Shown here: one piece after another, positions 21,899-25,598 of the stretch
How positions within the stretch are numbered: the first letter of the stretch is position 1
How the letters are laid out: the number at the start of each line of letters is the position of its first letter
Assembly (NCBI GenBank): GCA_022702935.2
Contig: JAKIML020000103.1
Location: 1-61,584, forward strand
Reading direction: 5' to 3'
Length of the DNA: 61,584 nucleotides
Origin: Bacillota bacterium
Lineage (GTDB): Bacteria > Bacillota > Clostridia > DSM-8532
Notes under the pieces: model-generated
The model's input: the letters and a program-made list of their open reading frames with translations, nothing else
The model's database searches: none
What the model was told of the DNA's origin: nothing
Made by a program: the position numbers and the translations under genes

Positions 21899-22546
21899 TC
21901 AGTATCCTAAGGGCTCGCCCACCAGAATCACCTTGATGCGGTCCTTGTTGCGCTGATGTCCCAAGACCACATAGGAACAGCAGATGCGCTGGTCACTCTT
22001 GCAGGACATACAGGTTCCTGTCTTGATACAGGGGGTTTTGGTACTAAGGCGGACATTGTTGGCCGGAGCCGCAATGTTCTTCACCCTTTCAACCGCCTCA
22101 TCAATGTCCCGTACCAGCTTGTTGATGCCGGCTACCACAATGACACTCTGGGGCCCGTAGATCATGGCCGCAACCCGGTTGCCATTGCCGTCCACATTGT
22201 AAAGCTCGCCGTTTTCAGTGATGGCATTGGTGCTGGTTATGTATCCGTCGGCAAAGAAGGACTTTCTGTAAATCTCCTGCATCTGTTCCCGGGTCAGGCC
22301 CTCGGCATAGCGATCCAGGAAGTTATAGCGGCCGCTGCGCAGATGATCAATAACACCTGCTTCAAACAAGGACATGGAGCCGCCCACACTGACCGTATCT
22401 CCCTTTTTGAGAAGCTCGGCAATCTTGGGCACCACCTGATCCCTGGTTTCCACATAGAAGGCCACCATATTGTTCTTCTCCAGATTCTCCAGGGTCTTCC
22501 GGATTTTTATATCCAAAATACTCTTAAGATGCTGATCCAAATGCAC
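21899..22546 (-). CDS. LUD-domain protein (lactate-utilisation-type, DUF162)
   Basis: 215-residue protein of the LUD/YkgG family, whose characterised members (LutC/LldG) support lactate oxidation; many clostridial members have no known role. The family glycine-rich region is VSVGGSMSLFEAGVIDHL, and the second half has ITENGELYNVDGNGNRVAA and VIVVAGINKLV. The C-terminal part carries a cluster of cysteines (CIKTGTCMSCKSDQRICCSY) that could bind metal. The frame opens with GTG at 22546; a TTG at 22540 gives better spacing to GGAGG. It is 12 bp after serA and so shares the glycine riboswitch. No lutA/lutB genes are present. Confidence 0.88.
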   Translation of the reverse strand: MHLDQHLKSILDIKIRKTLENLEKNNMVAFYVETRDQVVPKIAELLKKGDTVSVGGSMSLFEAGVIDHLRSGRYNFLDRYAEGLTREQMQEIYRKSFFADGYITSTNAITENGELYNVDGNGNRVAAMIYGPQSVIVVAGINKLVRDIDEAVERVKNIAAPANNVRLSTKTPCIKTGTCMSCKSDQRICCSYVVLGHQRNKDRIKVILVGEPLGY

Positions 22547-22558
22547 ACCCTCCTTCGA

Positions 22559-24166
22559 TTAGAAATTCAGTCTGGATACCTTCAGCACACCGTCAATATT
22601 GCGCAGCTTTTCAACCAGCTCATCGGAAACCTCGCTGTCCACACTGACAAAGGAAACAGCCTTGTTTTCCTTGGTGCTGCGGCCCCACTGCATGGCGCCG
22701 ATATTGATGTTGTTCTCACCAAGCAGGGTTCCCACTTTACCGATGATGCCGGGCACATCCTTGTTCTGGAGGGCCAGCACATAGTTGGTGGGTTCGAAGT
22801 CCAGCTTGTAGCCAAAGAAGTCCACCAGACGGATGGCGTCCTTGGCAAAGACGGTTCCCGAAACCGCAATGGGCTTGCCGGTGCTGCGATAGAATTTGAC
22901 GGTGATAAGATTAGTATATTTATCCAACTGGCTGGATTTGCTTTCAACAAGCTCAACCCCAAACTCGCTGAGCTTCAGGGCGGCGTTGACATAGTTGACC
23001 TCGGACTGGCTGATGACTGACAGGAAGCCCTTGACAATGGCCAGAGTAATGGGCTTGGTAGGCTTATCCACCAAATCGCCGCTGTAGACAATCTCGATCT
23101 TGTTGACCCTTTCCTTCTCGGCCTGATAATAGATGGCACCCAGCTTTTCACCCAGGCTGATGTAGGGCTTGAGCTCGGATAAATCGCCGGCAATGGGCGG
23201 CATATTGACCGCAGCCACCAGTTCACCATTCAATACGGCTTCCACAGCCTTTGCAACACCTAAGGAGCAGTTAAGGTTGGCCTCTTTGGTGGATGCGCCC
23301 AGGTGGGGTGTAAAGATGACCTGATCCAGATCCAGCAGGGGATTCCAGTAATCCTGTTCCTCGGGAGCCTTGTTGAAGTTGGGCTCTACCTCCTGAACGT
23401 CCAGGGCGGCTCCGGCCACATGACCCGATACGATGGCATCATACAGGGCCTTCTCGTCCAGCATACCGCCGCGGGCCACATTGACAATGCGCACGCCCTT
23501 CTTGCAGAGCTTGATCTCGCGTTCGCCAATGAGGTTCTTGCTCTCGGGAGTCTTGGGAATATGCAGGGTCACCAGGTCGGCCTGCTTTAAAAGGTCGTCA
23601 AGGTTCTCGATACGGGTAACGCCCAGTTGATTGCAGCGCTCGTCGGTGATATAGGGATCATAGCCAATGACCTTCATGCCGGCGCCCATGAGCTTCTTGG
23701 CCACAATGGAACCAATCTTTCCAAGGCCGATGACACCGGCAATCTTTCCGTCCAGTTCTTCACCCACAAACTTATTTCTGCGGAAGTCCTTGTTCTTTGC
23801 CGCATGATAGGCCTGAGGAATATTTCTGAACAAAGCATATATCAGGGCCACGCTCATTTCAGCGGCCGCCATGGTATTGCCGTCAGGGGTATTGACCACA
23901 GTAATGCCTCTGCGGGTACATGCCTCCACATCAATGTTGTCCACACCATTTCCCGCACGACCGGCAACCTTCAGGTTGACGCCGCGTTCGATAACATCCT
24001 TTTTTACCTTGGTGGCACTTCTGACAATGATGGCATCATACTGGTCAATAACCTCAAGCAGTTCCTCATGAGAAATACCAAAGGGTGTATCCACCTGAAA
24101 GCCCTTGCTTCTGAGATAGTCAATACCATTGGAAGCCATCTTGTCTGTTACGATAATCTTTGCCAT
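22559..24166 (-). CDS. serA: D-3-phosphoglycerate dehydrogenase
   Basis: 535-residue long-form SerA, catalysing oxidation of 3-phosphoglycerate to phosphohydroxypyruvate, the first step of serine synthesis. The NAD-binding motif is GVIGLGKIGSIVAKKLMGAG, the catalytic Arg/Glu/His regions include NVARGGMLDEKAL and FTPHLGASTKEA, and the C-terminus carries an ASB domain and an ACT domain (VPGIIGKVGTLLGENNINIG) for allosteric control. An AGGAGG box precedes the ATG at 24166. Upstream is a tandem glycine riboswitch with a terminator, so synthesis is probably tied to glycine level. Confidence 0.97.
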   Translation of the reverse strand: MAKIIVTDKMASNGIDYLRSKGFQVDTPFGISHEELLEVIDQYDAIIVRSATKVKKDVIERGVNLKVAGRAGNGVDNIDVEACTRRGITVVNTPDGNTMAAAEMSVALIYALFRNIPQAYHAAKNKDFRRNKFVGEELDGKIAGVIGLGKIGSIVAKKLMGAGMKVIGYDPYITDERCNQLGVTRIENLDDLLKQADLVTLHIPKTPESKNLIGEREIKLCKKGVRIVNVARGGMLDEKALYDAIVSGHVAGAALDVQEVEPNFNKAPEEQDYWNPLLDLDQVIFTPHLGASTKEANLNCSLGVAKAVEAVLNGELVAAVNMPPIAGDLSELKPYISLGEKLGAIYYQAEKERVNKIEIVYSGDLVDKPTKPITLAIVKGFLSVISQSEVNYVNAALKLSEFGVELVESKSSQLDKYTNLITVKFYRSTGKPIAVSGTVFAKDAIRLVDFFGYKLDFEPTNYVLALQNKDVPGIIGKVGTLLGENNINIGAMQWGRSTKENKAVSFVSVDSEVSDELVEKLRNIDGVLKVSRLNF

Positions 24167-24210
24167 ATAACCATCCTCCTACTTTATGCGTTGTGAGCAT
24201 TGACGGGTAT

Positions 24211-24238
24211 AAAAAAAGCCAAACCAATGTGTTTGACC
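24211..24238 (-). terminator. Intrinsic terminator of the glycine riboswitch expression platform
   Basis: Minus strand GTCAAAC / GTTTGGC stem (one G-U pair) with a six-base loop and TTTTTTT, 45 bp upstream of the serA start. Its place between aptamer and gene indicates transcriptional control. Confidence 0.82.
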
Positions 24239-24303
24239 TCTTAAGCTTAGTCCGTAAAAAAGCAACGACCCAAGAGCATGAGTTCCCTCATGCATCTTAT
24301 GCG

Positions 24304-24475
24304 CTCTGTCCTTTTGCCTGAGAGAGTCATCCGGAAATGCTTTCCTGATTTCCAGACTTGCCCCTTCGGCGCCGTCATCGGTCTCTCCAGAGGTCCGTCA
24401 GGCCTAGGTCTCTGTACCTGAGAGATTTACTCCTTCGGTGTGCTATTTCATATCAGCCGCTCTCCCTGGGCCCTC
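24304..24475 (-). promoter_or_regulatory. Tandem glycine riboswitch
   Basis: Two glycine aptamers on the minus strand. Aptamer I (about 24393-24475) holds GGGAGAG, CACCGAAGGAGTAA and CTCTCAGGT. Aptamer II (about 24304-24392) holds GGAGAGAC, GGCGCCGAAGGGGCAA and CTCTCAGGCAAAAGGACAG, closed by CTCTG/CAGAG. These are the conserved core bases of the class. After aptamer II comes a perfect GCATGAG-GGAA-CTCATGC hairpin (24276-24293); the P1 3' strand AGAGC can alternatively pair with GCTCT just beyond it, then the terminator follows. On or off polarity cannot be decided by eye. Confidence 0.93.
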
Positions 24476-24537
24476 ATCCGGGTATTCAATTATAACCTTC
24501 CCCAGGAAAATCCTTGCTCCCGTAAAAGGTTAAGACT

Positions 24538-24567
24538 ATGATAACTCTTTAACAGATCAAAAGTCAA
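24538..24567 (-). promoter_or_regulatory. Promoter of the riboswitch-serA-LUD operon
   Basis: Minus-strand TTGACT (24562-24567), an 18-bp spacer and TATCAT (24538-24543), about 65 bp upstream of aptamer I. Confidence 0.7.
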
Positions 24568-24593: not shown

Positions 24594-25598
24594 TCAACGG
24601 GCCTTAAGGAGAATGGGGTCATTGGTTGAAGGAATGGAGCTTGTATACCCTGTAATATAAGGCTTTGCATTGTCATAGGTGAACCAGTCAAACATCCACC
24701 GGGCAGGGCTGTCGGCAGGGGCGTCGGCCCGAATCAGCATCCATGCGGTGGAGATGAACGGATAGCTGCCATTGGCGATATTTTCTTCAGAGGGGTAGAC
24801 ACCGTCTATGGCAAAGGTTTTCAGATACGGTGAAGCACCAAACTCGCCGTCCACATAGGTAAGAAAGCTATAGCCGATGCTATAGGGGGTTGCTTCTACC
24901 ATATTGATGATCTCGCCCATTTCGCGGAATTCCATCTCTTCATAAGTACCGTCCTGGAAATCAGGCACATCCTGTTGTCCATCCCAGACCAGGGACTCAA
25001 ACATGCGCTGGCTGCCCGATTGGCTGTCGCGAATAAATACATTGATCTCGGCATCGGGACCCCCAACTTCCTTCCAGTTGGTGATCTTTCGCCGATAGAT
25101 ATCCCTGAGCTGTTCGCTGGTGAGATTATCCACGGGATTTTCTACATTGCCCACAATGATTAAGGCATCATTGGCATAGCACCGGGCCTCCAGTTCCACG
25201 CCCTTTTGGTCCATATAGGCCTGCTCCTCCTCGGTGGGCAGCAGGGCGAACACCACATCTACCGTCCCGTCAATGAGATTGGTAATGGCATAGTGGGTGG
25301 TGCTGCAAAGGGGCTCCGGACCGGTCATGGGGCCGTTGAGCACCAGGTCGCTGTAGAGGGCGTACACCATATCCTTACGCGCCGTGGAGGAATCAAGCTG
25401 AGGAAAGGTCAGGTTCTCCTCGGGCTTTTCCACCGGTTGAACGCCGGGTGCCGACGGGGTGGGCGCAATAGTACTGGGAGTGGGCGAAACATCGCCTCCC
25501 ACATCGGGAGTCCTGGGGGTAAACCTGCTGCATGATACGAGGCTAACCGAAAGCATGCATATTAAAAGGATCATGGCAATACGTCTTATGGGCTTCAC
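24594..25598 (-). CDS. PstS-like substrate-binding lipoprotein
   Basis: 334-residue lipoprotein: signal peptide MKPIRRIAMILLICMLSVSL, lipobox Cys at about residue 23, then a Pro/Thr/Ser-rich linker to about residue 60. The rest is a PBP-like domain of the phosphate-binding type, with LTSEQLRDIYRRKITNWKEVGG and RDSQSGSQRMFESL, close to the PstS signature. No PstC, PstA or PstB genes are adjacent, so it is an orphan. It lies 66 bp after ftsY on the same strand. It may bind phosphate or another oxyanion at the cell surface; transport cannot be inferred from this window. Confidence 0.85.
   Translation of the reverse strand: MKPIRRIAMILLICMLSVSLVSCSRFTPRTPDVGGDVSPTPSTIAPTPSAPGVQPVEKPEENLTFPQLDSSTARKDMVYALYSDLVLNGPMTGPEPLCSTTHYAITNLIDGTVDVVFALLPTEEEQAYMDQKGVELEARCYANDALIIVGNVENPVDNLTSEQLRDIYRRKITNWKEVGGPDAEINVFIRDSQSGSQRMFESLVWDGQQDVPDFQDGTYEEMEFREMGEIINMVEATPYSIGYSFLTYVDGEFGASPYLKTFAIDGVYPSEENIANGSYPFISTAWMLIRADAPADSPARWMFDWFTYDNAKPYITGYTSSIPSTNDPILLKAR

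Follow-up and report, generated by a model that had tools for sequence, protein, structure and literature searches.

Two glycine aptamers in front of serA, a gene for serine biosynthesis, raise the question of which way glycine would drive the gene. SerA opens the route from 3-phosphoglycerate to serine, and GlyA converts serine to glycine. The locus lies in a stretch of clostridial DNA of 61,584 nucleotides (hereafter called the window), where the minus strand carries a gene for a PstS-like lipoprotein (24594-25598), the two aptamers, serA (22559-24166) and a gene for a LUD-domain protein. An original prediction made from the window had proposed a tandem glycine riboswitch acting on serA and had left its polarity open. 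Our analyses favour, with a probability of roughly 0.86, a transcriptional OFF switch that acts on serA and, at this locus, also on the LUD gene behind it. We infer both glycine binding and the direction of the response from sequence.

Tandem glycine aptamers in the serA leader

Both aptamers lie on the minus strand and exceed the 32-bit cut-off of the glycine riboswitch model RF00504, aptamer I (24396-24477) with 52.2 bits (E 8e-10) and aptamer II (24296-24400) with 62.2 bits (E 2e-12), which bears out the predicted tandem arrangement with conserved cores. The genome-wide search recovers both, and in the Rfam scan of the window aptamer II alone is above the gathering score. The letters of the aptamer cores are of the standard glycine type. 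A tandem model, RF03166, spans both aptamers (24481-24302) with 77.3 bits, under its cut-off of 110, and its alignment includes CCG/CGG pairs between leader and linker that correspond to a P0 kink-turn. A tandem architecture with a short linker is therefore present.

The target gene encodes a full-length 3-phosphoglycerate dehydrogenase with intervening and ACT domains, as judged by Pfam domains and by TIGR01327 (608.8 bits against a cut-off of 454), so serA stands as the gene that had been named. Its ribosome-binding site, AGGAGG (24175-24180, minus strand), lies outside the switching elements described below. The window Rfam scan gave no match to a T-box (RF00230) in the serA leader. The gene for the PstS-like phosphate-binding lipoprotein stands alone, with ftsY on one side and the serA riboswitch on the other.

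A start of serA transcription downstream of 24300 would bypass the aptamers, and a promoter search saw none. A candidate promoter, TTGACT-18-TATCAT (24538-24567, minus strand), matches the consensus at 10 of 12 positions upstream of aptamer I and is the sole intergenic minus-strand site that scores at least 9/12; the span originally proposed, 24211-24567, runs exactly from the terminator U tract to this -35 box. Sites resembling TTGACW-N16-18-TATNAT, often with a perfect consensus, occur in nearly all relatives, mostly 22-61 nt 5ʹ of aptamer I. Because such a site precedes aptamer I, and the window offers no second promoter candidate above 6/12 in the stretch from aptamer II to the terminator, the aptamers very probably belong to the serA transcript.

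The source genome is 99.98% complete, and GcvT was not found in it. GlyA is present, its gene being split over two contigs (G000:C75:16236-17096 and G000:C56:31764-32039), probably by an assembly break. A typical SerC gene, identified by sequence alone, is unlinked to serA. None of the 15 T-boxes of the genome adjoins serA or serC. A second tandem glycine riboswitch (locus L036, G000:C34:81956-82122, minus strand) resides before a gene resembling AGCS-type sodium:alanine symporters. With riboswitches before this gene and before serA, glycine would bear on uptake as well as on the committed step of biosynthesis in this organism.

Alternative pairings and the direction of the response

The predicted terminator directly before serA is an intrinsic terminator, T2 (24211-24242, minus strand), with the structure AAGAGGUCAAAC-ACAUUG-GUUUGGCUUUUU, a U7 tract at 24217-24211 and a folding energy of -11.6 kcal/mol. 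Its 5ʹ arm, CAGAGGUCAAAC in most relatives and AAGAGGUCAAAC in the window, duplicates the P1 3ʹ strand of aptamer II (CAGAG, 24304-24308, minus strand), and the P1 5ʹ strand GACCUCUG (24388-24395, minus strand) can thus pair either in the aptamer itself or with that arm. The two uses of this strand overlap: CUCUG (24392-24388) pairs in P1, whereas GACCUCU (24395-24389) pairs in a putative antiterminator with the P1 copy AGAGGUC (24235-24241, minus strand) inside the terminator 5ʹ arm. Together with three more pairs, the window antiterminator has an energy of -13.2 kcal/mol, which is equalled by 0.65% of shuffled sequences. In the window, and in all 25 leaders examined outside a sister genus, g7 (the Thermoclostridium caenicola group), it is mutually exclusive with both P1 and the terminator.

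Minimum-energy folding of the whole leader misfolds the aptamers (z -1.96), so constrained and truncated folds were used. For several serA leaders, an automatic terminator finder returned a wrong hairpin or no hairpin at all, and the test of direction relied on folds anchored on the conserved terminator arm. In transcripts that end before the terminator 3ʹ arm, without ligand, the antiterminator lies 7.6-18.1 kcal/mol (mean 12.5) below P1 in 25 of 25 leaders. When the terminator is complete, forcing P1 to form, a comparison that had been suggested at the outset, raises the terminator probability in most leaders outside g7 and lowers it in none; for the full window leader at equilibrium, the value moves from 0.89 to 1.00. 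Since the terminator prevails at equilibrium in the window even with P1 left free, the switch would have to be kinetic and decided during transcription.

These pairings suggest the following course of events. Without glycine, P1 of aptamer II would remain open and leave GACCUCUG free to capture the terminator 5ʹ arm (CAGAGGUC in most relatives, AAGAGGUC in the window) as soon as it is transcribed, which would block the terminator and let polymerase continue into serA. With glycine, P1 would close through CUCUG and CAGAG and release the arm, whereupon GGUCAAAC could pair with GUUUGGCU and transcription would end at U7. The polarity that had been left open is thus most plausibly OFF, as read from the pairing of the P1 5ʹ strand with the arm of the second hairpin. 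Because serA is the committed step of serine, and hence glycine, synthesis, an OFF switch fits end-product control, the likely purpose that had been proposed for this polarity.

Comparison among relatives points to the same elements. The region 3ʹ of aptamer II varies in length and sequence among serA leaders, whereas a terminator core GUCAAAC...GUUUGRCU with its U tract, and CAGAG just before that core, are constant; GUCAAAC occurs in at least 22 of 25 leaders. The arm reads exactly CAGAGGUC in 14 of the 25 leaders outside g7, with CAGA mostly outside the terminator stem, and since aptamer II uses CAGAG as its P1 3ʹ strand too, CAGAGGUC complements GACCUCUG over its full length. Among all 16-nt windows of the region after the aptamers, the one that pairs best with the P1 5ʹ strand is the terminator arm in each of these 25 leaders. 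The arm departs furthest in four genomes (G004, G006, G007 and G010), which carry CUCCGGAGAAGUC or CUUCCGGAGUC, and there the duplex shifts by a few bases into CUCUGGAG and keeps 8-11 pairs. Strict two-sided compensatory changes within one register were not found among the leaders compared; the antiterminator is supported by conserved complementarity, G-U changes and such register shifts. Pairing of a P1 strand with the arm of another species is weaker by about 1 kcal/mol on average. Shuffle tests combined over genera give a very small value, which is descriptive only, as the genera share ancestry.

Genus g7 keeps the riboswitch and the terminator and has no P1-based antiterminator. At five g7 loci (L049, L053, L055, L058 and L068), an alternative pairing right after aptamer II may substitute for it. 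In one further serA leader (L090, genome G015), aptamer II is shortened and no terminator was found, which marks either a decayed copy or an assembly gap.

The original prediction had placed a possible switch elsewhere, in pairing of the P1 3ʹ strand with a segment beyond a 7-bp hairpin in the spacer (GCAUGAG-GGAA-CUCAUGC, 24276-24293, minus strand). This pairing is specific to the window, relatives have no conserved terminator there, and the hairpin itself falls within the variable region. We rejected the proposed switch: the overlap with P1 is just 2 nt, and the U tract lies 14 nt past the core stem. The hairpin is probably not a terminator. Spacer hairpins with GCAUG/CAUGC arms and variable flanks recur within the genus (the window, L043, L047, L060 and L071) and are possibly pause or insulating hairpins.

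An ON switch in the manner of gcvT, in which glycine would activate serA through this first hairpin, is accordingly improbable. It would require that an extended hairpin base, AGCG (24305-24302) with CGUU, is broken when P1 closes, and in the window, though only there, the pairing ahead of the first U tract does drop from 0.56 to 0.10 when P1 is forced. The small P1 overlap and distant U tract argue against it, as does the lack of a U tract at this place in relatives. Moreover, a second terminator promoted by P1 would still come after the first hairpin. True ON platforms look different: the gcvT leaders found in this family share 4-10 nt between the P1 3ʹ strand and the terminator 5ʹ arm, have their U tract directly behind the stem, and form less terminator when P1 is forced. 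In the serA leader, the T2 arm begins about 61 nt past P1 and does not contain the P1 3ʹ strand. By these folds, the sister gcvT leaders appear to be of ON design, with wiring opposite to that of serA, and serve as an internal control. An ON design is expected for glycine cleavage.

Slightly less probable still is a riboswitch that responds to glycine mainly through transcript stability or translation, with a terminator that is constitutive and leaky. The terminator is stable on its own at -11.6 kcal/mol, g7 retains it without the antiterminator, and in Streptococcus pyogenes glycine also acts at a second level, through transcript stability (PMC5829553). However, bases that mimic P1 are conserved before the terminator stem across several families, and a constitutive terminator needs none; the serA ribosome-binding site, as noted, is also separate from the switching elements. 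Most remote is drift of the aptamers to another ligand, as in a variant class such as glycine-GGAnGA, for which the match to the tandem variant model RF03166 might speak, but that match is below cut-off, both aptamers pass the ordinary model with standard core letters, and the target and genome context suit glycine.

Distribution of the riboswitch and the downstream LUD gene

The survey of serA leaders with the Rfam glycine model that had been proposed as a check was carried out by searching RF00504 in the 61 genomes surrounding that of the window. A glycine riboswitch resides immediately before serA in 29 of the 32 genomes of the family, that of the window included, and in one genome (G032) from another family within the order. 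Of the three exceptions within the family, one site is cut by a contig end (G016) and two genomes gave no match (G003 and G021). Close SerA relatives in named records come almost entirely from clostridial metagenome-assembled genomes, together with Thermoclostridium caenicola DSM 19027.

We also sampled 80 further sites across the class, for which gene names come from BLAST against a small local set or from reading of the sequence, with no family scan. Those that can be classified mostly precede symporters, gcv genes or a TrxR-containing cluster that is probably glycine reductase, and two of the 80 lie directly before ser operons (SerC-like plus SerA in G397, serC-serA in G313). The predicted OFF scheme is kept in distant ser leaders (G046, G056, G313 and G397), such that five family-level groups have its anatomy in leaders of serA or of serC-serA. 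Other Clostridia carry riboswitches directly before glyA-like and threonine-aldolase-like genes (L214, L236 and L209), which represent further steps of glycine synthesis. Riboswitches at L165, L166, L193, L198 and L203, in several Clostridia, lie 5ʹ of a conserved ORF of about 450 amino acids. At L231 (G337), a riboswitch with the anatomy of the ON type precedes a gene for a probable membrane transporter, and a SerA-like gene is second.

The LUD gene (21899-22546, minus strand) begins 13 nt after serA and encodes a stand-alone LUD-domain protein (PF02589 LUD_dom, E 2.5e-60) that has no sequence relative in the PDB at E 0.01. Its proposed status as a co-target holds insofar as the short gap suggests cotranscription with serA, but the association is not constant: of the 14 members of the genus, 9 carry the gene at this place, between serA and rimO, and in the sister genus g7 all five have it behind serA. 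Outside these two genera, LUD is absent from this position and other genes, mostly rimO, follow serA. We regard it as a lineage-specific passenger on the serA transcript. LUD domains are known from LutB and LutC and are also found alone, and they share the ISOCOT fold with 5-formyltetrahydrofolate cyclo-ligase (PMC3924224). Replacement of that enzyme by the LUD protein was considered and rejected, as PF01812 is present in genomes with and without LUD alike. There is a small chance that the protein genuinely takes part in serine/glycine metabolism and has been kept in two genera under a glycine OFF switch; serA and LUD would then form a small feedback regulon and give the LUD domain a new role without LutA or LutB.

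Comparison with known systems

The pairing of a glycine sensor with ser genes is already known in rare cases, of which the serA riboswitch described here is a well-conserved example. Glycine riboswitches have been noted before serC and serA in a single Clostridium species (PMC3766115), and two tandem arrangements of glycine riboswitches with T-box(Ser) RNAs before serC, serA and serS are predicted to be OFF switches (PMC9481103). These systems share sensor class, pathway and predicted polarity with the serA riboswitch. Unlike them, the present arrangement places the riboswitch before serA alone or serA with LUD, lacks both serC and a T-box, and is nearly family-wide. Serine synthesis in Paenibacillus polymyxa is reported to be controlled by a T-box (PMC8002221). 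This is likewise a case in which an RNA element places serine biosynthesis under an amino-acid signal, but the T-box senses uncharged tRNA, and the 15 T-boxes of our source genome all lie away from serA and serC. In Streptococcus pyogenes, a tandem riboswitch before a sodium:alanine symporter gene was measured to cause premature termination with glycine and is thus an OFF switch (PMC5829553), although its target is a transporter rather than a biosynthetic enzyme.

The present case adds its spread across the family, a target limited to serA and an expression platform that comparison appears to resolve. Across a clostridial family, and not as a rarity of one species, the committed step of serine synthesis would answer to glycine as its end-product signal. 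The gcvT ON riboswitches, including those of sister species, use the same tandem aptamers. There the P1 3ʹ strand lies within the terminator 5ʹ arm, such that glycine prevents termination, whereas the serA terminator holds a separate copy of that strand. Sister species offer a natural pair, predicted to be OFF for serA and ON for gcvT, that differs only in how the P1 3ʹ strand, or the copy of it, is placed relative to the terminator, which makes polarity legible from sequence and testable by swaps.
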